Both the position numbers and the translations under genes were made by a program. A stretch of 59,431 nucleotides of DNA, taken from contig JABFSU010000007.1 of the NCBI GenBank assembly GCA_013140455.1, positions 1 through 59,431 of the forward strand, in the 5' to 3' direction. The notes below the pieces were generated by a model, which worked only from the letters and a program-made list of their open reading frames with translations, had not been told where the DNA came from and did no database searches. This DNA comes from Nitrospira sp. (GTDB taxonomy: Bacteria; Nitrospirota; Nitrospiria; Nitrospirales; Nitrospiraceae). Of the stretch, positions 27,761-49,411 are shown piece after piece (within the stretch, counting starts at the first letter, position 1; each line of letters opens with the position of its first letter).

Positions 27761-27774
27761 GACTAGACTCTTAC

Positions 27775-29613
27775 ATGGCGAAAATAGAAAACCACAAGTA
27801 CAGCATTGAGGAAGCCTTCCGGGAGTGTTTCTACATCGTCCCTGATTACCAACGGGAGTATGTCTGGACCGATAAAGAGGTGCAGCAACTCCTGGATGAC
27901 ATCAATGAGCAGATTGATGTTGGGATAAGTCGAGAATACTTCATCGGGACGGTGTTGGTATCCCCAACCGCGCAGAAGAATCACTATGAGGTGATTGACG
28001 GGCAGCAGAGGTTGACCACATTCTTCCTGTTATTGTGCGCGTTGAAGCATCTCTTTCGCGGCGAGCCCCAATGCCAGACCATCAGTGGTTTGATTTCGAC
28101 CAGCTATACGTCGAGCGAGGGAGAGGCATGCACTAGCCTGAAGCTTGAGCCGCGTTACGAAAATGCTGGTGAGGTGATGGTCAAGATTGTTGCATTGGAC
28201 GCTGACCCACAGGTTACGCGTAATGGCATTCAGGCCGCAGGTATTGGGAGTTTCGGCTCACTGGAAAATCTGGTCAACGCATACGGCACTCTTTACCGCC
28301 ATCTGAAGGACAACTATGACGACAAGGCGAAGCTGAAAAAGTATTGGGGGTATCTGGCAAACAACGTGGTGTTCATCCAGATTTCAACAGATGTCAGTAG
28401 CGCACTGAAAATATTCGAGACCATCAACGAGCGTGGAGTTGGGCTTAACTCAATGGACTTGTTGAAAAACTTGCTTTTTACCCACGTTAAGGCTGACGAG
28501 TTCACTCGCCTAAAGGACGAATGGAAGAAGATTACGAAGCCTTTGGAGAAGGAAAAGGAGAAGCCCCTTCGGTTCTTGCGCTATTTCCTGATGGCTAATT
28601 ACAAGATCGAGAATGATCGTAGTGATGCTGTTGTGCGAGAGGACGAAATCTACGATTGGCTTACCAGGAAAGACAATTCCAAGCTTTGCAATTATGAAGA
28701 ACAGCCCTTCGAATTCGTGCGGAAAATCATTCGAAATGTAGATCACTATCTACATTTTGCGGCAGGGCGAGGGAACGATGGGAAGCCAAGTGTTGAGATG
28801 GACAGCTTAGCCCGTCTTACCGGAGGTGCTTTTAGCCTGCATTACATGCTTTTGCTGGCCGCAAGCACTTTTCCCAAGGCCCTCTTTGATCATTTTGTCC
28901 GACAGCTCGAAAGCTTTCTTTTTTACTACATTTTTACCAAGACCCCGACTAAGGAATTGGAGCGGAACTTTTCTATCTGGGCTGACGAATTAAGGGGTAT
29001 TGGGGCAGAAGCGGATCTGAATAAGCAGAAGTTGGCACTGAATGTCTTTGTTGGTGAACATTTCCAGAAGAATATGACAAGCAAAGATGCCGAGCTTACT
29101 GATGCCCTGATCCGATACTCGTTACATACTATGCAGCGATATCGCACGCACTACTTTCTGTCCAAACTGACACAGTTTGTCGATATGTCTTATAAGGGGT
29201 TAAAGGTTTCCGGCCCATTGTCTGACTATCAAGGGGTCGAGATGGAACACATTCTGCCCGATAATCCAAAAGAGGAATTAAAAGCCGACTTTGTCGCCAC
29301 TAGTCCTCTGGCGAACTATGATGATTATAAGAACAGGCTGGGCAATCTCACATTACTTGAGAAGCCTATCAATATCGTCGCGAGTAATGATTTCTTTGTC
29401 AAAAAGAAATTGGAGTATGCCAAGAGTTCCTACTACCTCACGAGAAGCATTGCGGGTCTCAACACCGTTGGCAATGACAGCTCCATAAACCGTATTAATA
29501 GCAAGCTAGCCGCATTTGAGAATTGGACCGCAAGATCTATAGATCGGCGCCAAGGGATCTTGATTACACTCTCGAAAGAAATCTGGAAAACCTCAGAGGT
29601 CGAGGTGGGCTAG
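27775..29613 (+). CDS. DUF262/DUF1524 protein (GmrSD-like) inside the hsd operon
   Basis: 612 residues. The N-terminal DUF262 domain has VPDYQREYVW at 22-31 and IDGQQRLTTFF, with the DGQQR motif at 75-79, the ParB-like nucleotide-binding signature of GmrS. The C-terminal DUF1524 domain has EMEHILPDN (His492, Pro495) and NRLGNLTLLEK, the H...N...N signature of the HNH-type nuclease in GmrD. GmrSD proteins are modification-dependent restriction enzymes. This gene lies 14 bases after hsdS and three before hsdR, so it is made with the type I system and may add a second restriction activity or regulate it. Confidence 0.88.
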   Translation: MAKIENHKYSIEEAFRECFYIVPDYQREYVWTDKEVQQLLDDINEQIDVGISREYFIGTVLVSPTAQKNHYEVIDGQQRLTTFFLLLCALKHLFRGEPQCQTISGLISTSYTSSEGEACTSLKLEPRYENAGEVMVKIVALDADPQVTRNGIQAAGIGSFGSLENLVNAYGTLYRHLKDNYDDKAKLKKYWGYLANNVVFIQISTDVSSALKIFETINERGVGLNSMDLLKNLLFTHVKADEFTRLKDEWKKITKPLEKEKEKPLRFLRYFLMANYKIENDRSDAVVREDEIYDWLTRKDNSKLCNYEEQPFEFVRKIIRNVDHYLHFAAGRGNDGKPSVEMDSLARLTGGAFSLHYMLLLAASTFPKALFDHFVRQLESFLFYYIFTKTPTKELERNFSIWADELRGIGAEADLNKQKLALNVFVGEHFQKNMTSKDAELTDALIRYSLHTMQRYRTHYFLSKLTQFVDMSYKGLKVSGPLSDYQGVEMEHILPDNPKEELKADFVATSPLANYDDYKNRLGNLTLLEKPINIVASNDFFVKKKLEYAKSSYYLTRSIAGLNTVGNDSSINRINSKLAAFENWTARSIDRRQGILITLSKEIWKTSEVEVG

Positions 29614-29616
29614 CTC

Positions 29617-32600
29617 TTGTCTGAATACTTCCATGTTGAAAAGCCCTTTTTGGATCAGCTCGCAACCTTGGGCTGGACAGTCATCGACCAGGGACATGGG
29701 CTGATTCCCTCTGACCCTGCGACCAGCTTACGTGGGAATTTCCGCGAGTGGTTGCTGCCGGAGACCTTTCGCACGTCGGTTCGCTTACTCAATCTTACTT
29801 TGGATGGACGAGTTTGGCTAACTGATCGTCAGCTCGATGATCTTCGTGATCAGATCCTTCGCCAACCAAGCCGTACGTTGCTCGAAGCGAACGAGGCGGT
29901 GCAGGCGCTCTTCCTCAAAGCCCAAGTGGATATGAACGAACTCACCGGGGAGCCCGACCCGGTGGTGCAGTTGATCGATTTCACCCATCCAGAGCGAAAC
30001 GTCTTCCATGCGATCAACCAGTTCCGTATCGATACGCCAGGTTGCGTGAAAGCCTGCATCATCCCGGATATTATTCTGTTTGTGAATGGCATTCCTCTCG
30101 TGGTGGTCGAGGCGAAGATCGGCGATCCGAACACGGCCAACCCGCTGCACGCCGCATTTGAACAATTGCTTCGCTATAGGAATGGACGTCTTGAGACGGC
30201 TGCCGCCGGGTTGCGCGAAGGTGAGCCGCGCCTGTTCTACTCAAATCTCCTGCTCATTCGTACCTGCGGCGAGAAGGCAGAGTTCGGCACGATCACGTCC
30301 GGTCACGAGCATTTCTCAGCCTGGAAAGATATCTGGCCAGAGTACCGTCGTTCCTACCCGTCGCCGCTTGGGGTCGAGCGTGAACAGGAAAAGATGATTC
30401 AGGGAATGCTTGCTCCTGACACGTTGCTAGATGTGCTGCGTACCTGCACTGTCTTTATGGATACGGATGCAGGGAAACGTGTGAAAGTGGTCTGCCGCTA
30501 TCAGCAGTACCGCGCTGCCCGCCGCATTGTGGAGCGGTTACGCAGAGGGAAAACAGCCGAAGAGCGATCCGGTGTCGTTTGGCACACGCAGGGATCCGGT
30601 AAATCGCTCACGATGGTCTTCGTCGCCCGGATGCTGCGAGCCTCTGGCGATCTGGCTGACTTCAAGATCGTGATGGTGAACGACCGAATCGATCTGGAAG
30701 ACCAGTTGTCTGCGACCGCTCGGTTGATCGGTGGAAAGGTGAATGTCATCGAGAGTACAGCCCAACTCCGTGAACACCTCGGCACCGATGCCTCCGATGT
30801 GAATATGGTGATGGTCCATAAGTTCATGGAACGGGCGGAAGATGTGCCGCTGATGGTGGCCGAGACGTTGGCTCGCTATGGCAAACCGCCCAAAGTGGAG
30901 ACGTTCGGCATTGTGAACCGGTCGGAACGCATTCTCTTAATGATCGACGAGGCCCACCGTACGCAAAGCTCTGATCTGGGAGACAATCTGTTCGAGGCAT
31001 TCCCAGACGCGACCAGAATCGCTTTTACCGGGACCCCGCTCATTTCCGAACAGCACGGTGCTAAGCGCACGGTGAAACGGTTTGGGGAATATATCGATAC
31101 CTACAAGCTGATGGACGCAGTGCATGACGGTGCAACCCTCCAAATCCTCTACGAAGGCCGCACAGCGGATACCGCGCTGAAGGACAAGCATGGGTTCGAC
31201 ACGAAGTTTGAAGATCTGTTCAAGGAGCGCACTGAGGAAGAGTTGCAGGCGATCAAGAAGAAATATGGCGCGAGCGGGGACATCCTTGAAGCGGAAAAGC
31301 GTATTGAAGCCATCGCACGCGATTTAGTGGGCCATTACATCGACAATATTCTGCTGGACGGTTTCAAGGCACAGGTCGTGTGCCACTCCAAGCTCGCGGC
31401 GATTCGATATCAGAAAGCCATACGGGTGGCCCTTGTCGAACGGTTGGATCGTGAACAATGCCAACCGACGCCCAATGCAGATTTGATCCGGCGCATTGCC
31501 TTCCTGAAAGCAGTGGTGGTCGTGTCATCCGATGCGACGAATGAACTCGCGGTCATCACGGAGGCCCGCAAGGAGGCCAAGCGCTGGAATGCAGTGGAGA
31601 ACTTCTGCAAACCGTTTGATCTCAATGACCCAGACAAGGACCTCACAGGTATCGCCTTCCTGATTGTCTGCGACATGCTCCTGACCGGCTTCGATGCGCC
31701 GGTCGAGCAAGTCATGTATATCGACAAGCGGTTGCGAGAGCATAACCTGCTGCAAGCCATCGCCCGTGTGAATCGTGTATCCAAAGGTAAGGGGCGGGGT
31801 TTCATTGTGGACTACATCGGCCTGGCGAATCACCTGGCCCATGCTCTGTCGATCTATGCCAAGGAAGATGCTCTGGATATTCAGCAGGGGCTGAAGAATC
31901 TCCTCACGGAAGTGCCGGTTCTGGAAGAACGGTACCAGCGACTCCTGCAACACTTCCTCTCAGCTGGGATTTCGAAGATTGAGGCATTTGTCACAGGGGC
32001 ATTGAACGGGCCGGAAGCGGAGGTGGCTGTCGTGCATGCGGCGGTCGGCGCGATGCAGGATCTCAAGCGGCGGGCCGATTTTGAGGTTTATCTGAAGGCG
32101 TTTCTCCAGAGCTTGAATCTAATTCTGCCGCACGAGACGGGGCATCCCTATCGAGGGCCTGCCAGGCGGTTCGGCTATCTGCTACGCATGGTCAAAGAAC
32201 GGTATAAGGATGATTCGCTCGATCTTGCCGACGCTGGAGCGAAGGTGAAGGCTCTTATCAATGAGCACCTCATTGATCTCGGCATCAATCCAAAGATTCC
32301 GCCCATTGAACTGCTCTCGGCCGAATTCTTGGATCAGGTGCGGAAGCACGCGGCCGGTGATCCTGAGGCCAAGGCTAGCGAGATGGAGCATGCCCTTCGT
32401 AAGCACTGTACGGTGCACTTTGACGAAGATCCCGCTTTCTATAAGCGGCTGAGCGATAAATTAGAGAAGCTCATCCAGGAACATAAGAATAACTGGGAAG
32501 CATTGGCGGAGGGGTATGAACAGCTCCGAGCGGAAGCGTTAGCGGGGCGCACGGAAGCCGTTGAAGGGCTGACCAAGGAAGCCACGACGTTCTATGATCA

Positions 32601-32871
32601 CGTGGCACAGCTGGCATTCAGTCACGGTGATGTGCCATCCCAGGACCAGCCACGATTGAAGCAATTAATGCTGCGCATTGTGGAGACACTCCAGGAGACG
32701 ATCGGGATCATCGACTTTTGGAAGAAACCGATTGAAGTGAAGCGGCTGCGAGGCGACATTGACACGGAGATTCTTCTCGCCAATATTACGCAGCTCACCG
32801 AGCAGCATGAGCGCATCGCCGTTGAAATCGTCAAGCTGGCAGAGAAGCGTCATGAGGAACTGACGACATGA
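29617..32871 (+). CDS. hsdR: Type I restriction endonuclease subunit
   Basis: 1084 residues from a TTG start. The N-terminal PD-(D/E)XK nuclease has Asp in CIIPDIILFVNG and the E-x-K pair Glu165/Lys167 in LVVVEAKIG. The SF2 translocase follows: Walker A QGSGKS (Lys329), DEAH at 444-447, motif III FTGTPL, and later RVNRVSKGKGRGFIVDYIG. A helical C-terminal region binds the methylase core. With HsdM and HsdS it forms the ATP-dependent complex that pumps DNA and cuts far from the unmethylated site. The gene is intact and overlaps the next by four bases. Confidence 0.95.
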   Translation: MSEYFHVEKPFLDQLATLGWTVIDQGHGLIPSDPATSLRGNFREWLLPETFRTSVRLLNLTLDGRVWLTDRQLDDLRDQILRQPSRTLLEANEAVQALFLKAQVDMNELTGEPDPVVQLIDFTHPERNVFHAINQFRIDTPGCVKACIIPDIILFVNGIPLVVVEAKIGDPNTANPLHAAFEQLLRYRNGRLETAAAGLREGEPRLFYSNLLLIRTCGEKAEFGTITSGHEHFSAWKDIWPEYRRSYPSPLGVEREQEKMIQGMLAPDTLLDVLRTCTVFMDTDAGKRVKVVCRYQQYRAARRIVERLRRGKTAEERSGVVWHTQGSGKSLTMVFVARMLRASGDLADFKIVMVNDRIDLEDQLSATARLIGGKVNVIESTAQLREHLGTDASDVNMVMVHKFMERAEDVPLMVAETLARYGKPPKVETFGIVNRSERILLMIDEAHRTQSSDLGDNLFEAFPDATRIAFTGTPLISEQHGAKRTVKRFGEYIDTYKLMDAVHDGATLQILYEGRTADTALKDKHGFDTKFEDLFKERTEEELQAIKKKYGASGDILEAEKRIEAIARDLVGHYIDNILLDGFKAQVVCHSKLAAIRYQKAIRVALVERLDREQCQPTPNADLIRRIAFLKAVVVVSSDATNELAVITEARKEAKRWNAVENFCKPFDLNDPDKDLTGIAFLIVCDMLLTGFDAPVEQVMYIDKRLREHNLLQAIARVNRVSKGKGRGFIVDYIGLANHLAHALSIYAKEDALDIQQGLKNLLTEVPVLEERYQRLLQHFLSAGISKIEAFVTGALNGPEAEVAVVHAAVGAMQDLKRRADFEVYLKAFLQSLNLILPHETGHPYRGPARRFGYLLRMVKERYKDDSLDLADAGAKVKALINEHLIDLGINPKIPPIELLSAEFLDQVRKHAAGDPEAKASEMEHALRKHCTVHFDEDPAFYKRLSDKLEKLIQEHKNNWEALAEGYEQLRAEALAGRTEAVEGLTKEATTFYDHVAQLAFSHGDVPSQDQPRLKQLMLRIVETLQETIGIIDFWKKPIEVKRLRGDIDTEILLANITQLTEQHERIAVEIVKLAEKRHEELTT

Positions 32872-33572
32872 AGGCCTTGCGCAACCCTGATATCTCGTAT
32901 GGCATCGTACGCAGCCGTCGCACGACCGCAGATATTGTGGTTGAGCGGGACGGGCGTGTGATCGTGCGCGCACCGGCTGAGTTTCCGGATGAGCGCATTG
33001 AGGATATCGTTCAGTCGAAGCGGTACTGGATCTATAAGGCACTTGCGGAATGGCGAGACCTCAACGCCACGCGAGTCTTGCGTGAGTATCGTAACGGCGA
33101 GGGGTTTCTCTATCTCGGCCGCTCCTACCGGCTTTCTCTTGTTGCGGATCAGGATGTGCCCCTGTTGCTACGAAATGGACGTTTCTGCTTGCGTCGTGAC
33201 TTGGTGGACCGGGGAGAGGTGGTCGCCGCGAAGGCCGCCTTTCGTGAGTATTTCATTGCCCATGGTCAGGAGCGTCTGGTCCAGCGAGTACGGTATTACG
33301 CGCCTAAAGTCGGGGTGACGCCTCGCGACATCGATGTGCGAGAGCTTGGGAATCGGTGGGCGTCTTGTTCACCCAGTGGCAATCTGGCGTTCCATTGGAA
33401 GTGCATGATGGCTCCGCCGACCATCATTGACTACATCGTGGTGCATGAACTCTGTCACTTCCATTCGTTCGATCACACGGAGGCCTTCTGGAACGAAGTG
33501 GACAAGGTTTTGCCAGATTATCGAGAGCGAAAAGAATGGCTCAAGAAGAATGGCGCAGCGATGGATGTGTGA
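32868..33572 (+). CDS. SprT/YgjP-type zinc metallopeptidase
   Basis: 234 residues with the YgjP (DUF45) metallopeptidase domain: an N-terminal beta domain, then GNRWASCSPSGNLAFHWKCM and the zinc motif HELCH at 193-197 in VVHELCHFHSFDHTEAFW, with a further His as likely third ligand. Members are often the last gene of type I restriction operons. They are suggested to process or recycle protein-DNA complexes, but the substrate is unknown. The start overlaps the hsdR stop by four bases (ATGA), which supports co-expression. Confidence 0.88.
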   Translation: MKALRNPDISYGIVRSRRTTADIVVERDGRVIVRAPAEFPDERIEDIVQSKRYWIYKALAEWRDLNATRVLREYRNGEGFLYLGRSYRLSLVADQDVPLLLRNGRFCLRRDLVDRGEVVAAKAAFREYFIAHGQERLVQRVRYYAPKVGVTPRDIDVRELGNRWASCSPSGNLAFHWKCMMAPPTIIDYIVVHELCHFHSFDHTEAFWNEVDKVLPDYRERKEWLKKNGAAMDV

Positions 33573-35330: not shown

Positions 35331-36419
35331 TTATGGTGAGAGAGCATATAGGGGCCGCTTGCGGTGGTTTAGTTGATGCCACGCTGGCAGAAACTTCTCT
35401 AAGGCCGTCACTGCCCGTCGAAGCGTGCGGTTCCATTTCTGACCTCCATGACTATAGTCCCCGGTTTTCCCCGGCATCTTGTGGCCCATCAGCCATTGGC
35501 GGACTTCATAGACCACGTCATGATTCTGAAGCGCCGTTGAAAAGGTATGGCGCAGGTCATGGAAGCGGAGGTCCGTGACGTTCGCACGTTTGCACAGGCG
35601 AGTCCACGCTTTCTTAAAGGACCGGTTCTTCCACCGGGCGAAGAGTCGGGTCCGGAGCTGTGGCACAGTGGACGTGAGGGCCCACGTGGCCAGCGCGTTC
35701 AGCGGAATCTCTTTCGGCGTCCCCTTGAGTCTCGAGAGGGCAGGCGGGAGGACGAGCCAGTTTCCGTCTGATCGCCGCACGATCCACTCCGGTTGAATCA
35801 TGAGCAGCTTGCTTTGCCGGAGACCGGTCATGACGGCGGCCACGATGGCTCGCCACATGTCCGGATCAGCAGCGTCGTGAAGCGCCTTGAGTTCCTGCAG
35901 GGTGGCGACTCGATCACGCTTGTTGCCCTCCGGCAGCTGGACGGCTTTTGATGGATTGCCTCTGATGACATCGTGGGCGGCGGCCAAATTGAGGATTCGG
36001 TTCAAGACGCCATACTCCCGGCGAATCGTCCAGTCGTTGGCCCCTTCTTTCTGACGTTTCTCGACATACGCGAGACACGTTTCTGCGGAGATCTCCGCCA
36101 TGGGCATGGTGAAGTGTGGCGCGAGGTGCTTCTTCACAATGCCTTTGGGACGGGTAAGGTCAATCCGCTTTTTGGTACGCAGCGTCCGGTAATAGATCCG
36201 TTCCGCAAACGCCGCCAGTGTTTCTCCTGCGGCCGTCGTCGCCGTGGTGACGAAGGGTGGATTCTGAATCCGTTCCACCATCGCGATCGCCAGCCTGTCC
36301 TTTTCTTCCTTCAAAAGGTCATAGCCAAGCAGGGGGCGATGGCGGGCTCCCTTCCAGCGGAAATCCAGATAGGTGGCGAGACCGGAGGCGTTCTTCCGGT
36401 CGTACGTGGGGATCTTCAC
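35331..36419 (-). CDS. Tyrosine recombinase (362 aa)
   Basis: A full-length phage-type integrase. The Arm region (KIPTYDRKNASGLATYLDFR) and core-binding domain (about 75-165) precede a catalytic domain with Arg in MTGLRQSKLL, HDLRHTF in LRFHDLRHTFS, Gly-His in MGHKMPGKT and Tyr in DYSHGG. All catalytic residues are present. Upstream lies an 84-aa excisionase-like HTH gene (six-base gap), the same pairing seen in the first island (15042-16342), so this is the probable main integrase of the second cluster. Confidence 0.92.
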   Translation of the reverse strand: MKIPTYDRKNASGLATYLDFRWKGARHRPLLGYDLLKEEKDRLAIAMVERIQNPPFVTTATTAAGETLAAFAERIYYRTLRTKKRIDLTRPKGIVKKHLAPHFTMPMAEISAETCLAYVEKRQKEGANDWTIRREYGVLNRILNLAAAHDVIRGNPSKAVQLPEGNKRDRVATLQELKALHDAADPDMWRAIVAAVMTGLRQSKLLMIQPEWIVRRSDGNWLVLPPALSRLKGTPKEIPLNALATWALTSTVPQLRTRLFARWKNRSFKKAWTRLCKRANVTDLRFHDLRHTFSTALQNHDVVYEVRQWLMGHKMPGKTGDYSHGGQKWNRTLRRAVTALEKFLPAWHQLNHRKRPLYALSP

Positions 36420-36425
36420 GGCGCG

Positions 36426-36680
36426 TCACTTCTCCAATTGATAAAGCGGATTGCGATGCTTGGTCCGAGAGGTGGCTCGGCCAACCGGTTTTGGTTGGGG
36501 TGGCTCGACCGTCCGCCCGCTTTCAATCCAGGCGATCAGCTCCTCAGAGGGATAGAGCCAGACGCGAGACTTGGGCGCGCGAAACCGGGGTGGCCCGTCT
36601 TTCATCTGCCGTAATTTGCTCTTCGAGGAGCGCATCAGCCGGGCGGCTTCCGGCAACGTGAGATAGCGTGGTGTGTCCAT
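36426..36680 (-). CDS. Excisionase-like HTH protein
   Basis: 84 residues; the ATG at 36680 follows GGAGG. MDTPRYLTLPEAARLMRSSK, SKLRQMKDGPPRF and VWLYPSEELIAWIESGRTVE form a MerR/excisionase-type winged helix, with a basic C-terminal tail. It lies directly upstream of the 362-aa recombinase. It probably controls the direction of that enzyme or binds the att site. Confidence 0.82.
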   Translation of the reverse strand: MDTPRYLTLPEAARLMRSSKSKLRQMKDGPPRFRAPKSRVWLYPSEELIAWIESGRTVEPPQPKPVGRATSRTKHRNPLYQLEK

Positions 36681-36786
36681 AATGTCCTCCATAGGAAAGG
36701 AAGATAGGGGGAGCAGGGCAGTGATGTAGGCTGAGCGGCTGCCAGCACGGGTGAGGTGCTGGCAGCTCTGCTCAGAGAGCCTGAGG

Positions 36787-37611
36787 TCAGGCTGCGCGCT
36801 TCTTGCGGAGGGGAGGCTCCGGGGAGATGAAGAGTGAAACCAGGAACGGGGGGTAGGCGTCCGGGTGTTCAACGATCAGTCGGCTGAGTTCGGCAAATTG
36901 GTTGGCGGGCAAAGTTGTCGTGAGACCGCTTCGTTGTTCGAGGGCGACGAGGTATTGGGCCAACCCGGGGGCGGTCATGCGCCGGACTCCCAGCATGGCG
37001 GCGATGAGCGTCACCGGGAGCCGGGCCGGCATGGCCCAGGCCGCGAACGTGTGTCGGAGGTCCTGGAACCGCAGGTCAGCCAGACCGGCCTTGTGGCAGG
37101 TCTCACGGAAGGCGTGGTGCAGGATGGCTTGGCTGAGGGGCTGTCCGAGTCCATCCACGAACAGGGAACGGGAGGCCGGCGTCGTGTGCTGGCACATCCA
37201 GCAGAGCATCGCCAGAGGCTTCGGGAGGGGAAACTCCCGAGTCTGTCCGGACCGCTGCTCTGCTACGCGGAGCTGTTCCCGGTCAAAGTCCATGTCGTCG
37301 CACCGCAGGGCGACAATCTCGGAGGCGCGGAGCCCTGCAAACAAGCTCATCAGGATCGGACCGACGAGCCAGACCTGGGCCTGTGAGAGCAGCGTGGCGG
37401 CTTCTTGCACGGTGAGCAGGCGAGGGGTCACCCAGGACAACTGCTTGGAGTCGACGCGCTGGGCTAAGCGGCGCTGACCGGCAAGCGCCTCTTCTTTCGT
37501 TCGAAACCCTGTCGCCACCCAGCAGGTTCCGTCGCGATAGACGCGGGCCGTCCAGTCGATCCGACCGTCCTGGTGCTGGCGTGAGTAAATTCCGAAGACG
37601 CGATTCTGCAT
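36787..37611 (-). CDS. Tyrosine recombinase-like protein with altered catalytic residues
   Basis: 274 residues from the ATG at 37611 (AGGAGG upstream). The fold signature is clear: Arg95 in FAGLRASEIVAL, QDLRHTFAAW at 183-192 and Tyr220 in LAQYLVAL. However, the conserved His before D-L-R is Gln183, and the Gly-His of the next box is Gly-Val209. The core-binding domain is nearly absent; only about 60 residues precede the catalytic fold. It is therefore either a weakly active recombinase or a regulatory partner of its neighbours. The 245-bp gap upstream contains a 7-bp inverted repeat around GTTAAT (37651-37670). Confidence 0.82.
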   Translation of the reverse strand: MQNRVFGIYSRQHQDGRIDWTARVYRDGTCWVATGFRTKEEALAGQRRLAQRVDSKQLSWVTPRLLTVQEAATLLSQAQVWLVGPILMSLFAGLRASEIVALRCDDMDFDREQLRVAEQRSGQTREFPLPKPLAMLCWMCQHTTPASRSLFVDGLGQPLSQAILHHAFRETCHKAGLADLRFQDLRHTFAAWAMPARLPVTLIAAMLGVRRMTAPGLAQYLVALEQRSGLTTTLPANQFAELSRLIVEHPDAYPPFLVSLFISPEPPLRKKRAA

Positions 37612-37856
37612 AAAACCTCCTGATCGTGATGTTGCGTTTTTCCGAAGGGCACCGCCAGTTAATTGGCGGTCCCCCCTTCCAAACGGTGCATGGCAGCCCG
37701 CTATCCCCTGGATGGCTCCATCCTGAGGACCCCCAAATTGCTGCATATTGTGGAAGCGGAACGTCTGGGGAACGGTGGTCTTCCCGAAGGCTCGAGAACC
37801 GTATGGTGTCATCGAGTAGTGACTCGACCTACTGTGGCTAGTCGTTTTTCAATTGG

Positions 37857-39137
37857 TTACGCAGCGGCCTGGTCTTGTGTGGCAGTAGCGCTGGCGGTGC
37901 CGTTTAACGGCTGGTGACAGGCCTTGCAGCGGCCACTGGAGGCTGGCAGCTCATCCAGCAGATCTACCGCCCATCGCAGCTGTCCCGGGATCAGGTGGGT
38001 ATAGGTGTCAGCGGTGATCGCGATGGATTTGTGCCCCAGCATGGTGCTGACATACTTGAGGGTCACCCCCCGGCTGTCACCTTGCAGCAGTAAGCGCGTT
38101 GCAAAGGTGTGTCGTAGGTCATGAATGCGAAAGCTCCGGAGCCCTGCTTCTTTCAGGATCGGATGGAAGATGTTGCGACGAACATGCTGCTGGGTATATG
38201 GCAGGGTCTGAAGTCCCTGGAATAGCCACGTTGGGGTCGGTTGCCAATGGAGTTCCGCCTCCCGGTTGAGCCGGTCGATATAGGCACGAAGGACCTCGGC
38301 GAGCTTCCACGACATATCCACCATTCGCTGATTGTTGGATTTGGTGCTCTCCTGGAGGCCGCCTTTGGACCACATTCGATGAACCCAGATTTGACGTTTG
38401 TCAAAGAGGATATCATTCACTTGCAGCGCCAATGCCTCTCCAATCCGAAGTCCGGCCCGGAGGAGAAGAAAGAAGAAGGGATACCATTGAGGTTCGTAGG
38501 CCTGAACGGCCTGCAAGAAGCGCTGTTCCTCCTCCGTGGTGAGTGGGACCACGAGATAGTCCGTGGGTGAACTCATCAGGTCCTTGAGATCCAAGGCATA
38601 GTTTTGGGGGATGTGCCCGTCGAGGTGGGCCGCATTCAGCATGCGCGAAAGCACTTTGAGAGTGTTTTTGACCGTCTTGAGACTGATGTCCTTTCCCGCG
38701 GCTGTCTTCCGATCGAGTTCGTCGAGCAAGAACTCTTTGACGCGTTCACGATTCAAAGAAGACACACGGAGGTGCCCCAGTGCGGGAATAATCTTGTACT
38801 TGAGAATAGACCGGTAGGATTCACGCGTCGTCGGCTTGTACTTCCGACGACGTTCCTGAATCCACTGTTCTGCGTATTCCTTCACTGTGGTTGTCCCCTG
38901 CGTTCCCAGTCGCGGACCTCCCCGGCGCTGATACTTGCGGGGATCAAAGCTTCCCTTGTCCTGCTCTACTTTGGCGAGCCGATACATTTTGCGTGCGAGT
39001 CCTTTACTCCGAAAGCCGCCGATCATGACCGGCTTTCCGCCGTGCCAGACTCGGACATCGAAGACGCTCTCTCCGGTCTTCAGTTTTCGCTCGATGATGC
39101 CCCGATCGTTGCCATTTTTGCGTTGTTTCGTTTCCAT
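37857..39137 (-). CDS. Tyrosine recombinase (426 aa)
   Basis: Complete integrase with an Arm region (ERKLKTGESVFDVRVWHGGK), an N-terminal SAM-like domain (about 85-175, VKEYAEQWIQERRRKYKPTT) and a catalytic domain with Arg in LRAGLRIGEALAL, HDLRHTFATRL, Gly-His in MLGHKSIAITADTY and Tyr in DTYTHL. A C-terminal CKACHQ pair could bind zinc. All catalytic positions are present. It is encoded 19 bases after the 250-aa core-binding protein on the same strand. Confidence 0.92.
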   Translation of the reverse strand: METKQRKNGNDRGIIERKLKTGESVFDVRVWHGGKPVMIGGFRSKGLARKMYRLAKVEQDKGSFDPRKYQRRGGPRLGTQGTTTVKEYAEQWIQERRRKYKPTTRESYRSILKYKIIPALGHLRVSSLNRERVKEFLLDELDRKTAAGKDISLKTVKNTLKVLSRMLNAAHLDGHIPQNYALDLKDLMSSPTDYLVVPLTTEEEQRFLQAVQAYEPQWYPFFFLLLRAGLRIGEALALQVNDILFDKRQIWVHRMWSKGGLQESTKSNNQRMVDMSWKLAEVLRAYIDRLNREAELHWQPTPTWLFQGLQTLPYTQQHVRRNIFHPILKEAGLRSFRIHDLRHTFATRLLLQGDSRGVTLKYVSTMLGHKSIAITADTYTHLIPGQLRWAVDLLDELPASSGRCKACHQPLNGTASATATQDQAAA

Positions 39138-39156
39138 GATGTCGTCTCTCCTTCTG

Positions 39157-39891
39157 TTAAATAGAGGATGTTAATCGTTGCCGTGTCGTGTGGGTGGGCA
39201 ACATGCACCGGGGATCTGTGACTGGGTTCGCGGTCACGAGACCGTCCGCTTTTGCCGCATAAAAGATGCTCGCCAGGGTTTTCCGCATGTTCTGGCAGAG
39301 GGAGAGCGAATACGTCTTGAGCTGTTTCTGTAGCCATCGCTCCACCCGCTCTACCGTGATGTCGCGCAGGCGGTGAGTGCCAAATGCTGGATTGAGGTGC
39401 TGAGTGCAGAGGGAGCGAGTGGCATCTTGGGTGCTTTGGCTCCACCCTGTCTTGCTGGTCTCAAACCACCGTCGCGCATAGGCATGGAAGAGGATGTCAG
39501 ACTCGACCTGGCTCCCTGTTCCCTTCTGGCCCTGATTGGCCGGAAGCCCCTGTTGATGGCTCGCTGGCTTGGTGGGGCGAGGAAGGTCCCCTGTTGGCTC
39601 GTGCGCAGCCAAGGCCGCCTGAAGCATAGGCTCCAGGACGGGAAGCAAGACCGCATATTTGTGTTGAACAGCGAGGAGTGCGCGTTGCTCTGGCGCAGTG
39701 AATGGCGGCCACGGCAGGAAGGCCTGCCGCAGCTTTTCCAGCCGATACCGGCTGACGGCCTCCTCGAGGCTGTTATGACGTAGGGTCTGCCGACGGCCTT
39801 TGAATTGGATCGTCAGGACCCAGACAGGTGATCCATCGGAGCGGACAAGTTTGGTGAGTCCTGGGATGTTGGCTGTGGTGAATGTGATCAT
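39157..39891 (-). CDS. Recombinase core-binding protein without a catalytic domain
   Basis: About 244 residues from the ATG at 39891 (AAGGAGA upstream). The N-terminal 60 residues resemble an Arm-type beta domain (WVLTIQFKGRRQTLRHNSLE). Residues about 140-225 have the SAM-like core-binding pattern FETSKTGWSQSTQDATRSLC, LRDITVERVERWLQKQLK and MRKTLASIFYAAKADGLV. The protein ends there, with no Arg/His/Tyr catalytic domain. It may bind the same DNA as the neighbouring recombinases as an accessory factor, or it may be the front part of a split gene. No frameshift joining it to the downstream frame is apparent, since the 426-aa protein has its own complete N-terminus. Confidence 0.7.
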   Translation of the reverse strand: MITFTTANIPGLTKLVRSDGSPVWVLTIQFKGRRQTLRHNSLEEAVSRYRLEKLRQAFLPWPPFTAPEQRALLAVQHKYAVLLPVLEPMLQAALAAHEPTGDLPRPTKPASHQQGLPANQGQKGTGSQVESDILFHAYARRWFETSKTGWSQSTQDATRSLCTQHLNPAFGTHRLRDITVERVERWLQKQLKTYSLSLCQNMRKTLASIFYAAKADGLVTANPVTDPRCMLPTHTTRQRLTSSI

Positions 39892-39905
39892 GAGATGTTC
39901 TCCTT

Positions 39906-40241
39906 TCACTTTGCGTAGCTCTTGTTGGCCCGCTTCTCCTTGAATTGAATTGGTTGCCAGGCTTTGGTGAGGCGTCCGAGAAAGGGTGCAAGTACCGGGT
40001 ATTCTCGTGCAGCCGTTCGCAGATGCTGGTTTTGTTCTGAGGTGAGCGGGTCGAAGAGTTGGAGGACCCGGCTGAGGAGAAAGTCCTGATACGCCGCGAT
40101 GGCCTCGGGCTCAGTCGGATATTTGCCGATGTGGTATTCCACGCCCTTGTGGCTGACCAGCACGAGCCAGCTGCTGGTGCCGTTCTTGAGAGGGATCTGG
40201 CAAAAGGGACCTTTTCGAATGGGTTTGAGGGAACTGGACAT
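39906..40241 (-). CDS. Small Arm-domain-like protein
   Basis: 111 residues. FCQIPLKNGTSSWLVLVSHK then GVEYHIGKYPTEPEAIAAY is a three-strand-plus-helix pattern like the Arm/AP2-type N-terminus of integrases. The second half, LTSEQNQHLRTAAREYPVLA, is similar in style to the linker of the 250-aa protein encoded next (TAPEQRALLAVQHKYAVLLP). It is therefore probably a truncated paralogue that binds arm-type sites. It is the first gene of the leftward cluster. Confidence 0.55.
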   Translation of the reverse strand: MSSSLKPIRKGPFCQIPLKNGTSSWLVLVSHKGVEYHIGKYPTEPEAIAAYQDFLLSRVLQLFDPLTSEQNQHLRTAAREYPVLAPFLGRLTKAWQPIQFKEKRANKSYAK

Positions 40242-40491
40242 CGTCTGCCTCCGTGAAGGGGTGAATCATGGAGGCAGAGCCGAGGATGGCTCGTCTTAAG
40301 ACTGAAGAATAAAGAGCTAGAAGAGAGATAGGGTATTAGGCATAACGTGTTGAATGTAAGTATCTGATAACTAAGCTAACAGACTGCGCTTCTAGGATAG
40401 GACGGAACTGGATTTAATTTCTGAGACTGTGGAACCGAGATAGCTTATGCGCCGGGTCGATCTTCTCAATTCAAAAGTACGGTAGCAGAGC

Positions 40492-43400
40492 ATGGCCGGA
40501 AAGCCTCGCCCTCGGAAAGACATTAATCTCTTGTATACAGGTCAACTGGACCTGGCGGGAATTCAGGTATTCGATCGACATCCCCCGCTTGGAAACAACC
40601 TGCTATTCGATGCCGTAACTGTCGACAACGTACCAACGACATGCCTTGCCTGTGGAGCATCAACCGGCTTTCGGAAGTATGGAAGCAGAGAGCAGGAATT
40701 TGTAGATCTCCCCGTAAGAGGAAGCAGAGTTGGAATCCGACTACTCAGGAGTCGCTATTGGTGCGCGAGCTGTAAAAAGGTTCGGTTTGAGGCGCTTCCT
40801 CAGATGGTTGAGGACCATCGTGTCACGAGGCGTTTGTACGTGTATGTCGCCTCCGCTTCTCTGACGGAGACCTATTCGAGCCTCAGTCGCGAGACTGGGA
40901 TTTCTGAAGGGACCATTCGACGAATCGCGGCGGAATTTCTGAACGAGCTCGAGACAAAACACGTTTTGCAAACCCCAATCCATTTGGGGCTGGACGAACT
41001 ATGCTTTGGCAGTAAGGGCGCTCAGCGACAGCAGGGATTTCTCCATAAGGCTTCGGCCACTCATTCACGGAGGACACGTCCCCCCAGAGCAATTCTGTCT
41101 GATTTGAAACGTAGGACCATCTTTGCCTTGTTGCCCAATAACAAGGCCGCTACGCTCCGCCAATTCTTCCAGCGCCTGCGAGACTGCGATCGCATTGTCG
41201 TCGTCTGCATTGACTTTTGCCACGCGTACCGTCGCGTGATTCGCGAGGCCCTTCCACATGCCGACGTCGTCATCGATAAATTCCATATTTTGCAACGTGT
41301 GAATGAAGCGCTTGATGAGGTGCGCCAGGACGTCAAGAGTCGACTGTTCCTATCGGGTCGCAAGCGGCTTAAGTATGACAGCCGACTTTTGAGGAAGCGG
41401 CGCGCCTGTCTTTCGAGTGAGCAGCAGGATGTGCTCGACGAATGGACAACGCGATTCCCCGAGTTACAGCAGGCCTACGAAGCGAAAGAGGCCTTCTATG
41501 AGATCTGGGGCGCCAAGGACGCTGAGGAAGGACGAACACGGTACCGCGCATGGTGTGACAACCTTCCTGCGAGTCTCCACAGGCAGTTTCGTTTCGTAAT
41601 TACAACGGTCAATCAATGGGAACAAGAAGTATTCGCCTATTTTCGATGGAGACAGGTGTTTCCGCAAGGAGGGGGAATCACTAATTCAACCACGGAGGCG
41701 TTGAACGGGATTGTCCGAGACCTCCTTCGAGCCGGCCGAGGGTATTCCTTCACAACAGCGAGAGGGAAAGCTTTGTATTCACGTGCTTACGCGAAATACA
41801 AGAGCAAGAAGGGCACGCTATTTTCTCACTACGAATGGGAACCGAGCGACTCCCGCTCAGAAGGGCATGATCCGGAAACGGAGTACGATGGGCCTATGCC
41901 AAACGAACCCGTAGAAACTCCGGTCGAACAAGCAGTGAGGGCCTACTTATATTGCAAGGCCGAAGCTGAAAAAATGCCGCCTCGAACGAGCGTGAGTAAG
42001 AACGTATGGGATGGAATCCAGTTTAGAGAGGTTTCAAGTCTGGATATACGACGACATGATGTTGGCCAAACAGTATCCGTGGAAAGGCGCGATTCTATGA
42101 GCTCTTCAGACAACGCAGGAATTCAACACGAAACGGCGAATGGGCGGCTGTCGGTACCCTCTGAGTCGAGGTCAGAGTTGTCAGGTGATGCGATAAACAC
42201 ATCGCGAGAAGCAGACAGACGGCTATCAAAATCGAAGTATGTCTCGGGGCTACAATGCTTGAAGCGCCTTTATCTAGAAGTCCACCATCCTCATTTGGCC
42301 CAACAGGATGTCCATCGAGCGAACATCATGAGTCAGGGCACGGAGGTCGGGAAACTCGCAAGAGATCGCTACCCGGGTGGGCAAGTGGTGGCTTCTGATC
42401 ACACCAAGCTCAACGAGGCTTTGGCTGAGACGGCGCAGCTGATGGAGAAGCCGGATGTCCCTGCCATTTTTGAGGCAACGTTTGCTGCCGATGGTGTGCT
42501 TGTACGAGTGGACGTGCTTGAGCGGGTAGGTTCCTCGGCCTGGCGACTTATTGAATGTAAAGCGGCGAACAAGAAGAAAGATGAACACGAAGACGATCTT
42601 GCCATTCAGGCTCACGTCTTACAGCGGTCTGGGGTGGTCTTGGAGGGCTTATCCTTGCTCTATCTGAATAGGGAGTATGTTCGAAAAGGGAAGGCACTTG
42701 ATCCCGATAAATTGTATCGAATTGAAGATGTCACAGCCGCTGTTACACCACTGCTGTCTCAGGTGCCTGGTCGCATTCGAGAGATGAAACAGGCACTCGG
42801 GGCCAGCGGCCCTCCTGTACGGGATCCGAGTGAACACTGCCAATCTCCCTATGCGTGCCCATTTTGGAGTCATTGTACCGAAAATAAATCAAACCGCTGG
42901 CTCTACCGCGTGCCCGATCGCGGTTTAATGTATCCAACTCTCCTTGCTAAGGGGATTCAGACTTTTGATGATATCCCCAATGATATCCCGTTGCCGCCGC
43001 CTCTGAGCCATATCAAGAAGAACGTCGAGTGGATCAGTGATGGGCTCCGCCGCACCTTCTCCTGGCGCAATAAGAGCCCGATGCATCATCTTCATGTTGG
43101 AGCTGCGATGTTGGCGGTTCCTCCCTTTTCAGGCACACAGCCGTGGGGGAAGCTCCCGTTCATGCTTGCCCATGTGCAAGAGACGGCAACGGGTGAGGTG
43201 GAAGAGCGGTGTTGGACTTCAGAGCAGAAGCGCGACCCACGACGAGCCTTTATTCGTATGCTTCTCGAAGCCGTTGGACGCGATGGGACGATCTATGTGT
43301 ATTCGCAATTCATTCTGCGAGTCATAAATGATTTAGCCTACTGGTCGACAACCTATCGGGCGGACCTCAAGGCGATACACGCGCGGATCGTTGACCTCCG

Positions 43401-43746
43401 TGCCCTTGTCCAGGAGGAATACTTTCATCCGGAGTTGCTTCATATCTATGCGGATCTGCCATACGGCAGTGCGGTGGCCATCCGGGAATCCCTGCCGATC
43501 CTTCCCCCTGAGCTTCAGCTGGAAGACGTCATGCGATGGGATGAAGGATGGCCGTCGCGGCAATACCAACAACTGATGGGGCAAGAAACGAGTGGTGAGG
43601 AGCGCGCTAAAATACTCTCGGAGGTTCAATCTTTTGGTTTCTGGGGCATGCGTGCTGTGCGAGCGTTTCGACAAACTCTAATGGCGAAGGCACGCTATAC
43701 TCCCCCAGCCCAACATGGGTGGAGCCTGAAGGTGCAAAACTGGTAG
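40492..43746 (+). CDS. ISL3-type transposase fused to a Cas4-like DUF2779 nuclease
   Basis: One open frame of 1084 residues. Residues 1-440 are an ISL3-family transposase: zinc ribbon Cys51/Cys54 and Cys91/Cys94, then the DDE residues Asp168 (GLDELCF), Asp241 (VCIDFCHAY) and Glu402 (NSTTEALN), and VIDKFHILQRVN. Residues 440-580 are a polar linker. Residues 581-1084 match DUF2779: SKSKYVSGLQCLKRLYL, a PD-(D/E)XK site with Asp674, Glu688 and Lys690 (RVDVLE, LIECKA), and cysteines 589, 783, 789 and 795 spaced as in Cas4-type iron-sulfur nucleases. A C-terminal DEDD-exonuclease-like region (860-1084) seems to lack its acidic motifs. No terminal inverted repeats were found, so it may be domesticated. 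The fusion is seen directly; its function is unknown. Confidence 0.85.
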   Translation: MAGKPRPRKDINLLYTGQLDLAGIQVFDRHPPLGNNLLFDAVTVDNVPTTCLACGASTGFRKYGSREQEFVDLPVRGSRVGIRLLRSRYWCASCKKVRFEALPQMVEDHRVTRRLYVYVASASLTETYSSLSRETGISEGTIRRIAAEFLNELETKHVLQTPIHLGLDELCFGSKGAQRQQGFLHKASATHSRRTRPPRAILSDLKRRTIFALLPNNKAATLRQFFQRLRDCDRIVVVCIDFCHAYRRVIREALPHADVVIDKFHILQRVNEALDEVRQDVKSRLFLSGRKRLKYDSRLLRKRRACLSSEQQDVLDEWTTRFPELQQAYEAKEAFYEIWGAKDAEEGRTRYRAWCDNLPASLHRQFRFVITTVNQWEQEVFAYFRWRQVFPQGGGITNSTTEALNGIVRDLLRAGRGYSFTTARGKALYSRAYAKYKSKKGTLFSHYEWEPSDSRSEGHDPETEYDGPMPNEPVETPVEQAVRAYLYCKAEAEKMPPRTSVSKNVWDGIQFREVSSLDIRRHDVGQTVSVERRDSMSSSDNAGIQHETANGRLSVPSESRSELSGDAINTSREADRRLSKSKYVSGLQCLKRLYLEVHHPHLAQQDVHRANIMSQGTEVGKLARDRYPGGQVVASDHTKLNEALAETAQLMEKPDVPAIFEATFAADGVLVRVDVLERVGSSAWRLIECKAANKKKDEHEDDLAIQAHVLQRSGVVLEGLSLLYLNREYVRKGKALDPDKLYRIEDVTAAVTPLLSQVPGRIREMKQALGASGPPVRDPSEHCQSPYACPFWSHCTENKSNRWLYRVPDRGLMYPTLLAKGIQTFDDIPNDIPLPPPLSHIKKNVEWISDGLRRTFSWRNKSPMHHLHVGAAMLAVPPFSGTQPWGKLPFMLAHVQETATGEVEERCWTSEQKRDPRRAFIRMLLEAVGRDGTIYVYSQFILRVINDLAYWSTTYRADLKAIHARIVDLRALVQEEYFHPELLHIYADLPYGSAVAIRESLPILPPELQLEDVMRWDEGWPSRQYQQLMGQETSGEERAKILSEVQSFGFWGMRAVRAFRQTLMAKARYTPPAQHGWSLKVQNW

Positions 43747-44381: not shown

Positions 44382-44801
44382 TCATCGACATTCTTTTGCC
44401 ATCAAGGCTTTTAATTCTATTGGATCCACTCGCACCGCGTTGCCGCTACGGTAAGCAGGCCACTGCCGGAGTGCGATACGTTCTCGAATAGTGCGCTCAC
44501 TTAACGACAGATATTGCGCGGCCGCCTTAATACTCATGAGCTGGCCGCTCGTTCTATCTTGTTTGAGGCGTTCCAAGATGTCGTCAAGTTTGTCCAAGAT
44601 GGCCTCCATTGTGGTAGCGAGCTGTCCAGAGACGGCTCGCCCACTGAGCCACGACCCCAGAACTTGAACCGTGTGCAGCAGATCATTGTGGTCATCGTCT
44701 TTTGCGGACTTGGCCGTTGGTTCAGGAACGACAGTGGGGGGCAGAGGTTGCAGTAAATTGAGAGCATCGTGTTGTAAGGATTGAGAGGGGTTGTGTTTCA
44801 T
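44382..44801 (-). CDS. Helix-turn-helix protein, excisionase type, with N-terminal helical part
   Basis: About 139 residues from the ATG at 44801. The C-terminal 50 residues read SIKAAAQYLSLSERTIRERI then ALRQWPAYRSGNAVRVDPIE, a helix_turn_helix 17/excisionase-type DNA-binding domain. A heptad-like helix (MEAILDKLDDILERLKQDR) before it may mediate dimerisation, and the first 60 residues are proline-rich. It heads or follows the row of family X genes on the minus strand (next gene 30 bases upstream), so it could be their regulator. Confidence 0.75.
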   Translation of the reverse strand: MKHNPSQSLQHDALNLLQPLPPTVVPEPTAKSAKDDDHNDLLHTVQVLGSWLSGRAVSGQLATTMEAILDKLDDILERLKQDRTSGQLMSIKAAAQYLSLSERTIRERIALRQWPAYRSGNAVRVDPIELKALMAKECR

Positions 44802-44830
44802 ATGACGCACCTGTGTTTTTCAGAAAGGGG

Positions 44831-45262
44831 TTAGGCTGCTGCTTGATAATGGCTGAGAAGCCGCAGCATGACGGCTTGGAGTTCTTGCTCTAGGCCGCCG
44901 CGCTGGACCTGATGATAGGGAATGAACCATTCCAGATCATCGTTCGGCCGCCGGCCTCCAGCGATGACTGCTCGAATGCAGGTTGGGCGATCTGACGGTA
45001 ATAAGCGGAGTACCGCATGAAAGGGATCCACTCGGATCCCGACTCCGACATGATCGTCATCACCCGTGAAAATCTCACAGTTCACACCGCCTTCCTTCAG
45101 GATATTCGCGAGTTTTCTTAGTTCTGGAAGCAGCGTCTCTTGTGCGATGAGCAGAAAGTGCTCCTGCGAAGAGTCGTCGGCACGATCTGCGGAGGACGTG
45201 TTCTTCCACGTTGCGAGGCGATCCTTTAAGTGGGCGTAAGAATTCTGTGTGGCAGTCTTCAT
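44831..45262 (-). CDS. Family X small protein (unknown), paralogue 2
   Basis: 143 residues; CAAGGAGA precedes the ATG. It has the family layout: an N-terminal helix AHLKDRLATWKN, a helix TLLPELRKLANILKEGGVNC, strands HVGVGIRVDPFHAVLRLL and a C-terminal helix LEQELQAVMLRLL. It is the most diverged of the set in this row. It has no cysteine or histidine cluster, membrane helix or signal peptide. It is one of three consecutive family members on the same strand. Confidence 0.65.
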   Translation of the reverse strand: MKTATQNSYAHLKDRLATWKNTSSADRADDSSQEHFLLIAQETLLPELRKLANILKEGGVNCEIFTGDDDHVGVGIRVDPFHAVLRLLPSDRPTCIRAVIAGGRRPNDDLEWFIPYHQVQRGGLEQELQAVMLRLLSHYQAAA

Positions 45263-45325
45263 GATGACTCTCCTTGTAATGAAGTTGAGGAATTGAGGCC
45301 GAGTGATGAGAAGGTGATTCCAATG

Positions 45326-45748
45326 CTACAGCGGTGGCCTGATCACCAGACGGTCGATGCAGCGTTCAAGAGCCGATGCGAAAAGCGCACGCGTGCACCG
45401 GTGATAACGCAATACATGCGGCTCTTCGACAGGGGGATCCCAGCCGAACCGGACGGTCAACTGCATGGATGTGGCATCGTGTGGTTGAAGAAGTAGGCCT
45501 CGAGTCCGAGCCTCATCCAAGAACAGCCCAAACCACATGTTGTCCTCCTCAAGTTGGACCACAACATGGGCTGCCATGCCGGCTTGCTGCAGGATTGCGG
45601 CTAGGCGTCTGGTCAGCGGAATGAGATCGATCTCTGCAAAGGCCAAAAAACGTGACAGTTGGGCATCGGGGCTCGGGGTCATCCATCCGTTCTCTTCATA
45701 CTGCTGCAGTCTTCCTTGTAGCTTGGTGTACGCGTCTAGTAGTTCCAT
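45326..45748 (-). CDS. Family X small protein (unknown), paralogue 3
   Basis: 140 residues from the ATG at 45748 (AAAGGAG upstream; a longer frame reaches the next gene). Shared features are the N-terminal helix YTKLQGRLQQYEENGWMTPS, the helix EIDLIPLTRRLAAILQQAGM, the strand AHVVVQLEEDNMWFGLFLDE and the C-terminal helix LFASALERCIDRLVI. Similarity to the other members is mainly in the LIPLTRRLA--LQQAG--AHV segment, equivalent to LAPIVTEL--ALEAEGL--TV of paralogue 4. Confidence 0.65.
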   Translation of the reverse strand: MELLDAYTKLQGRLQQYEENGWMTPSPDAQLSRFLAFAEIDLIPLTRRLAAILQQAGMAAHVVVQLEEDNMWFGLFLDEARTRGLLLQPHDATSMQLTVRFGWDPPVEEPHVLRYHRCTRALFASALERCIDRLVIRPPL

Positions 45749-45828
45749 CGTTCTAACTCCTTTATCAAGTGATGAGGGCCCATTCCGAACGCTCTTCCGG
45801 ATACCAGAGCGAGGGCGGGGGGGGGAGC

Positions 45829-46278
45829 TCATTGATCCCCAGGTTCTTTGCTGGCCCGTCTTGGCCCAAGCGCATGGAGTGCGACACCCTCGATGATTTC
45901 GATGACACGGCCGAGGTTGAGTTCCAAATCGCGATAGGCGATGAGCTGGGCACAATCACCCTCCCGGTTGGCTCGGCGATATGTGAACACCTGAAAGGCA
46001 TGAGGATTCTCGTCGGAATCGAATGTGATCTCGATGTCAAAGTCTTCGACTGTGAGGCTGAGATGGCGCGTCTCCTCGGACATGCCTCGCACCGTTGTCC
46101 GAAGCCCCTCTGCTTCGAGGGCGATCTGGAGTTCCGTGACGATAGGGGCGAGCCGTAACAGTACCAGCTGTCGGAATTGCTCCCAGCTTTGATTCCCAGG
46201 TCGAAGCAGATCGCCGGATTTCCACTCTCGAATCTTCCTTCGTAAGTAACTGAACGGGGGCTGTAATGGCGATGTCAT
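45829..46278 (-). CDS. Family X small protein (unknown), paralogue 4
   Basis: 149 residues; AAAGGAG precedes the ATG. PFSYLRRKIREWKSGDLLRP, FRQLVLLRLAPIVTELQIAL and AEGLRTTVRGMS are followed by strands HLSLTVEDFDIEITFDSDE and the segment LIAYRDLELNLGRVIEIIEG. It is about two-thirds identical to paralogue 5 (48745-49179) and shares its N-terminal helix with paralogue 1 in the other island (14409-14879). The role is unknown. Confidence 0.75.
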   Translation of the reverse strand: MTSPLQPPFSYLRRKIREWKSGDLLRPGNQSWEQFRQLVLLRLAPIVTELQIALEAEGLRTTVRGMSEETRHLSLTVEDFDIEITFDSDENPHAFQVFTYRRANREGDCAQLIAYRDLELNLGRVIEIIEGVALHALGPRRASKEPGDQ

Positions 46279-48744: not shown

Positions 48745-49179
48745 CTAGCAGCTGGCCCGTCTGGGTCCTAGGATTCGGAGGACGACATCCTCGATGATTT
48801 CCATGACGTGACCGAGATCGAGTTCTAGATCCTGATACGAGATGAGTGCCTTGCATTCATTTTCTGGGTTGGCTCGGCGACAGGCGGACATCTGAAAGCA
48901 GTGGGGGGTCTCGTCAGGGCCGAACGTGATCGCGATATCAAACGGCTCGATCAGGAGGCTCAGATGGCGCCGTTCGTCGGACATGTCGTGGATCGTCGCT
49001 CGAAGCCCCTCTGCCTGGAGCACTTCCTGGAGTGCCGTCACAATGGGAGCTAGGTGCAGGGGGGCGACTTGTCGGAACCGTTGGCAGCTCTGCTCTCCGG
49101 TCTGGAGAAGATCACCGGCGTTCCACTCTTGGATCTTGCTTCGTAAGTGACGGAATGGGGGTTGTGATGGGGATGACAT
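48745..49179 (-). CDS. Family X small protein (unknown), paralogue 5
   Basis: 144 residues from the ATG at 49179 (AAAGGAG upstream). PFRHLRSKIQEWNAGDLLQT, HLAPIVTALQEVLQAEGLRA and HLSLLIEPFDIAITFGPDE run almost parallel to paralogue 4, as does ISYQDLELDLGHVMEIIEDV. It is separated from paralogue 4 by the HEPN-like and cysteine-rich genes, which suggests duplication followed by insertion of those genes. Confidence 0.75.
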   Translation of the reverse strand: MSSPSQPPFRHLRSKIQEWNAGDLLQTGEQSCQRFRQVAPLHLAPIVTALQEVLQAEGLRATIHDMSDERRHLSLLIEPFDIAITFGPDETPHCFQMSACRRANPENECKALISYQDLELDLGHVMEIIEDVVLRILGPRRASC

Positions 49180-49411
49180 GGGACACTCCTTTGTTCGATG
49201 ACTGTACGTCGGTTGGCTACGAGCATCGGCAGTGCTGGCTCTTCCCGACCATTCAGGCAATCCGATGCTGCTGGCTCGGGCTAAGAGGTGTTAGTACGTT
49301 TCTAGGTCCGACGTGCAACCCCACGAGGAGAGTGGTGTGCGATGAAGACGGTGGAGCGCTGAAGGTGTGAGATATGATTAGCCGTTCAAGGGTGCATGAC
49401 GCACCTCGTCC

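Follow-up and report, generated by a model that had tools for sequence, protein, structure and literature searches.

A single reading frame joining an ISL3-family transposase to a DUF2779 nuclease in Nitrospira, and its two-gene counterpart within the genus

Analysis of the window, i.e., the whole 59,431-nucleotide stretch of Nitrospira DNA studied here (contig 30 of a draft assembly of 143 contigs), showed the presence of one reading frame in which an ISL3-family DDE transposase is followed by a DUF2779 protein (residues ~577–1068), the latter consisting of a Cas4/RecB-like PD-(D/E)XK nuclease with four cysteines and then an RNase H-like exonuclease domain (Table 1). In the genome G097 of the same genus, the transposase and DUF2779 genes are separate, with a 4 bp overlap (ATGA). 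The domains, the motifs, the adjacency in two genomes and the loss of exonuclease acids are read directly from the sequences. The most likely reading, held with slightly less than even confidence, is that the two parts form a cooperating transposase–nuclease pair, an old module carried on tyrosine-recombinase mobile islands.

Table 1. Features of the fused frame and of its surroundings, in nucleotide positions of the window.
Feature	Position	Strand	Basis
Fused reading frame, 1084 aa	40492–43746	+	ORF list; no internal stop
ISL3-family DDE transposase, residues 1–437	40492–41802	+	Pfam, NCBIfam, active-site residues
Linker, residues 438–576	41803–42219	+	Structure prediction, codon composition, shuffling
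In-frame ATG (ATGAGC, residue 536) after SD-like GGAAAGG	42097–42099	+	Sequence and inference
Cas4/RecB-like PD-(D/E)XK nuclease, residues 577–807	42220–42912	+	Weak Cas4 profile matches, alignment
RNase H-like DUF2779 domain, residues 863–1060, exonuclease acids lost	43078–43671	+	Pfam, alignment
Left inverted-repeat arm of ISL3-type element (ATTAGGCATAACGTGTTGAAT)	40335–40355	+	Likeness to left arm of G097
Candidate right inverted-repeat arm, read through by the fused frame	42121–42141	-	Repeat search; not significant alone
Tyrosine recombinase genes or fragments of the island, upstream of the module	35331–39909	-	Pfam
Excisionase-like HTH protein of the mobile island	44382–44810	-	Profile searches
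Small genes A (44831–45262), B (45326–45955) and C (45829–46278)	44831–46278	-	Comparison with G097

The uninterrupted frame of 1084 residues had been proposed in an earlier, sequence-only reading of this DNA, together with its two-part architecture; the frame was confirmed, and the architecture was borne out by Pfam and NCBIfam matches. All residues named in that reading, namely D168, D241, E402, D674, E688, K690, C589, C783, C789 and C795, occupy the places given for them. Since DUF2779 proteins combine RNase H-like and PD-(D/E)XK-like domains, the fused chain contains three nuclease-type domains, not two. Both catalytic cores had been described as intact, which holds for the DDE and PD-(D/E)XK sites, but in the third domain, the RNase H-like one, all four acids are replaced. 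No description of a transposase–DUF2779 fusion or pair was found in the literature searched, mostly papers open without subscription, and the sequence-only reading likewise knew of none.

The transposase half is represented by Pfam matches to DDE_Tnp_ISL3 (PF01610; residues 201–418, E 5.3e-48, 164.3 bits against a cut-off of 23) and HTH_Tnp_ISL3 (residues 100–147), as well as by the NCBIfam ISL3 transposase equivalog NF033550 (241.4 bits, cut-off 180). The zinc ribbon noted earlier is present as the cysteines C51, C54, C91 and C94, though the Pfam model Zn_ribbon_ISL3 (residues 48–94) scores 19.5 bits, below its cut-off of 25.5. These cysteines and the DDE triad D168, D241 and E402 are invariant in all six transposase proteins aligned, and the triad is kept in both the window and G097. 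Structure prediction, suggested as a check of the fusion, gave a full-length model usable for the transposase core alone: residues 51–390 were modelled with pLDDT mostly of 75–94, with dips at residues 171–200 (32–52) and at 71–80 and 151–160 (~60–64), while the linker up to residue 570 has pLDDT of ~21–45. The nuclease half modelled alone gave no usable structure (pLDDT 32.6), and a sequence search of solved structures gave nothing convincing.

In the passages of PMC3985635 that treat DUF2779 proteins, an RNase H-like domain, presumed to be a 3'-5' exonuclease, is accompanied by a DUF83 domain resembling PD-(D/E)XK nucleases. In the fused protein, Pfam DUF2779 (PF11074) matches residues 871–982 (E 6.1e-18, 65.7 bits against a cut-off of 23.3), and the nuclease domain contains E661, D674, E688, K690, D702 and Q706 with cysteines 589, 783, 789 and 795. 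An alignment of 61 distinct DUF2779 proteins was compiled (69 collected, eight duplicates dropped), comprising the window and G097 copies, the best genus and order matches and seven plasmid proteins; D674, E688, K690 and the four cysteines are identical in 61/61. A role of the nuclease in CRISPR adaptation, raised earlier, is not supported: Cas4 profiles (PADLOC) match this half only weakly, and the TM0106-family RecB-like nuclease model TIGR03491 scores 27.3 bits, far below its cut-off of 97.45.

The four exonuclease acids are kept in 59/59, 59/59, 59/59 and 57/57 of the other aligned proteins, two rows being gapped at the last site. The window has H868, G870, I941 and G1052 at these positions (0/4 kept), and G097 has H, E, V and A (one kept, three lost). 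The exonuclease site is lost in both copies, and in both the two parts are joined or touching, a combination suggestive of a functioning pair and not of chance. Seven further DUF2779 copies (second or partial matches; two full-length, and five partial without the nuclease motif) retain all four acids, with no ISL3 neighbor in the stretches fetched. Divergent second copies of DUF2779 with intact exonuclease acids occur in two other genomes (G042:C58, L143; G038:C156, L144), and no adjoining transposase was seen in the fetched stretches.

The best transposase match in the genus outside the window, G097:C121, is 39 or 35% identical, depending on the comparison. There, at positions 5830–5833 of L064, the TGA that ends the transposase gene shares bases with the ATG that starts the nuclease gene, which is the second DUF2779 gene of that genome. 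Because the same adjacency occurs in G097 near the same cluster of small genes, it is no assembly chimera, and since the pair is adjacent in two genomes, the join is a shared arrangement, its single-frame form being confined to the window. The sequence-only reading had held that separate genes in all close homologues, together with a stop or frameshift in the linker, would mark the fusion as an assembly or local accident; the genes are indeed separate in the nearest relative, but they lie side by side with an overlap, in favor of a functioning pair.

Conserved neighbors were also found. Downstream of the module, the small genes A, B and C are common to the window and G097, with the same order and orientation and identities of 41, 57 and 41%, respectively; two extra small ORFs lie between the module and gene A in the window. 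The upstream tyrosine recombinase of G097 is 34% identical to the product of window positions 35331–36419 and 60% identical to that of 15042–16358. In the genome G093, genes A and C are followed by tyrosine-recombinase-like ORFs, the B gene contains an internal stop, and the module is absent; with A and C present and the module missing, the latter has the appearance of an optional cargo of the island. Pfam matches, one just below the cut-off, mark six tyrosine-recombinase genes or gene fragments in the 59-kb contig, at 15042–18995 and 35331–39909. A family of small proteins of ~150 aa with no Pfam match is encoded at 14409–14879, 44831–46278 and 48745–49260, and such proteins also occur near tyrosine-recombinase-like ORFs in G093 and G097.

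Within the genus, matches to the transposase half were detected in 29/79 genomes (own included; E 0.001) and matches to DUF2779 in 68/79 (E 1e-15), the latter usually as one gene; in G000 (the genome of the window), G097 and G025, the usual DUF2779 gene has neighbors other than the module. By transposase similarity, the module is present in two of the 79 genomes, with the transposase in a single copy in each, and is fused in the window alone. The G097 locus is the only one with an ISL3-like ORF among 71 DUF2779 loci (that of the window left out; some genes counted twice, flanks of 1.5 kb in most) and the only one with a DUF2779-like ORF among 50 fetched transposase loci (repeats included). That only two module loci are known counts against the reading of an old module. 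No second fusion was found in 79 genus (E 0.001), 235 order (1e-30), 269 class (1e-40) and 395 phylum genomes (1e-20), sets that overlap and differ in threshold, and no place covering 80% of the query was found in 2934 matching plasmid records or 37 phage records. Full-length matches over both halves had been proposed as a check; at these thresholds none was found outside the window, and G097 has the two genes side by side. A contig scan with short peptides, which is insensitive, detected only ISL3 transposases, in Paenibacillus; viral scans yielded ISL3 sequences on six contigs, of which two have nearly the same transposase, and DUF2779 on one contig, but no contig with both.

One origin of the window and G097 pairs appears favored, though not proven, by phylogeny. 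The two copies were joined in the full-length DUF2779 tree with support of 97/99 (100/99 with two more divergent copies added) and in the full-length transposase tree with 99/98. Rival DUF2779 groupings were not rejected (p-AU 0.109 and 0.11), omission of either module row shifts the other, and the branches are long; each transposase row without its partner is unresolved, as are the two copies in a tree of the nuclease half alone. Among 115 columns at least 90% conserved in other DUF2779 proteins, both module copies are changed at 24, to the same residue at six, including V689C (inside the nuclease motif), D868H and T871A; 14 are changed in the window alone and 16 in G097 alone. This overlap is greater than expected from a hypergeometric distribution (p 1.1e-5), though parallel relaxation of a dead domain could be another cause.

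The position of the inverted repeats bears on a first alternative, namely that an ordinary ISL3 element inserted just upstream of a DUF2779 gene, either a single time in an ancestor or on two occasions, that in the window its transposase frame happens to run through the right end into that gene, and that the halves do not cooperate; this is unlikely, although it deserves serious weight. In G097, an 18-nt inverted repeat (17/18) brackets the transposase, with 0/300 shuffles as good; the left arm starts 120 bp before the transposase start, and the right arm follows after seven bases beyond the stop. The 15-nt core of this repeat recurs in the window at 40336 (13/15; 2/2000 dinucleotide shuffles as good), and the whole 18-nt motif matches the left arm at 13/18 (35/2000). 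The own repeat pair of the window lacks significance (76/300 shuffles as good), as does its right arm when compared with the G097 motif (528 and 1814 of 2000). The earlier statement that no terminal inverted repeats are visible was therefore too strong: G097 has a clear pair, and in the window the left arm is supported and the right arm is not. A third repeat copy beyond the nuclease, which would make the nuclease internal cargo, was sought in the window and in the fetched contig of G097 and not found. Across whole genomes, a pattern derived from the arms (one mismatch allowed) gave one site in the genome of the window, the left arm (reversed control 1), and in G097 the two arms with three sites on other contigs (reversed control 2).

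The inverted repeats thus enclose the transposase alone and leave the nuclease outside the visible ends, which is the strongest point for a plain insertion; the ends may now act as binding sites, or the true outer end may have escaped recognition. One copy per genome would also be expected of a stray insertion, and the sister relation of the DUF2779 copies is not decisive. The linker is in accord with an insertion as well: its likeness to the tail of the G097 transposase, suggestive by eye, was rejected (1738/2000 shuffles as good), and its GC3 of 0.50, against 0.56 in either half, is of no help to the view that the linker has long been in use. Against an accident, order, orientation and neighbors are common to both loci and both frames are intact at only ~35% identity, and the loss of exonuclease acids common to the two nucleases occurs in 0/59 of the others examined. 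ISL3 insertion sequences produce an 8-bp target duplication; none was seen by eye in the flanks of the arms in the window or G097, which also argues against insertion, although the ends may be misplaced.

The in-frame ATG at 42097 is a possible counterpart of the ATGA overlap of G097, judging from its context. It lies 24 bp before the candidate right arm and in frame with the transposase, and one frame over, the TGA within ATGAGC would end the transposase right at this ATG, which matches the arrangement in G097. From a G097-like overlap, a fusion would result through a net shift of one base, and a sequencing error would mimic the same. Accordingly, the gene pair may be real and the single frame a base-calling or assembly error (a small indel), with two overlapping genes as the true state; this is distinctly improbable. 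The draft state of the assembly, the lower GC3 of the linker and the lack of a second fusion in the genome, plasmid and phage sets searched are consistent with such an error, but the frame remains open over 139 linker codons with no stop between transposase and nuclease.

Highly doubtful is a role as defense or competition cargo of the island, in which the Cas4-like nuclease would attack incoming DNA with the transposase part as a DNA-recognition arm: restriction–modification genes are present in the window, and plasmid DUF2779 genes are accompanied by ATP-binding, WYL, phospholipase D or PD-(D/E)XK proteins in 4/5 annotated regions viewed, but no such partner was recognized in the ORFs scanned beside the module, and the PADLOC matches to Cas4 are weak. 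The plasmid neighborhoods concerned (L119, L120, L121 and L122, from three phyla; not the fifth region, L117) look like a defense operon. Window positions 24043–33572 contain Type I restriction genes, namely HsdM, a weak specificity-subunit match and HsdR, interspersed with a GmrSD-type gene and followed by one for a YgjP-like metallopeptidase, and positions 7074–9611 encode a TOTE-type archaeo-eukaryotic primase fused to a helicase.

For the cooperating pair, the joint action, the DNA substrates and the expression as one chain are what we infer. An ISL3-type DDE transposase with a specialized DUF2779 nuclease immediately behind it would be carried by a family of tyrosine-recombinase islands, the parts being coupled by the stop/start overlap in G097 and united in one chain in the window, presumably by a small frame change; the nuclease half could have a separate start and may additionally be made from the internal ATG. 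The zinc ribbon and HTH of the transposase would recognize the inverted-repeat ends, the DDE site would make 3' cuts or joins, and the tethered Cas4-like PD-(D/E)XK site would cut or trim the same DNA, as TnsA complements TnsB; the former exonuclease domain would now serve as a non-catalytic scaffold. An unusual recombination enzyme, as the sequence-only reading supposed, is plausible.

Similar to ISL3-family insertion sequences, the module encodes a DDE transposase with zinc ribbon, HTH and intact triad, and in G097 it shows clear inverted repeats. In contrast to them, the transposase is followed by or joined to a DUF2779 nuclease, occurs in a single copy per genome, has ~90–100 aa between its conserved core and the start of the nuclease, and in the window lacks a confidently recognizable right repeat. 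Some casposons carry a Cas4-like nuclease with their integrase, whereas the window contains a DDE transposase and no Cas1 match among the proteins scanned. In TnsAB, the domain order is the reverse of that in the window fusion. The latter also differs in the family of its transposase and has no visible ends around both genes; no Pfam match to TnsA or TnsB domains was detected in the fused protein at E 0.01. The likeness, in the parts of PMC8188705 on TnsA–TnsB and natural TnsAB fusions, is the union of an endonuclease with a DDE integrase in a single chain, and the same parts report that the tnsA and tnsB genes overlap and that an engineered TnsAB was made by a two-base insertion at the overlap. 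A TnsAB-like joint transposase is possible. Rather improbable is the fuller proposal of a two-nuclease transposase, in which an ISL3 DDE enzyme would have recruited a Cas4-like nuclease whose exonuclease domain is silenced, the two being encoded initially by coupled genes and later in a single chain, and would have arrived independently at the division of labor of TnsA and TnsB.

With DUF2779/DUF83-type proteins, as family F.17 is described in the relevant passages of PMC3985635, the module copies share the PD-(D/E)XK nuclease, the four cysteines and the RNase H-like domain, and they differ in the loss of exonuclease acids and the link to a transposase. Should the two parts indeed work together, a function would be assigned to one branch of DUF2779, whose activity as a family those passages give as a prediction, and nature would have a second solution, with no relation to Tn7, for adding a second-strand nuclease to a DDE transposase. 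The fused form of the window and the unfused form of G097 provide a ready natural comparison.
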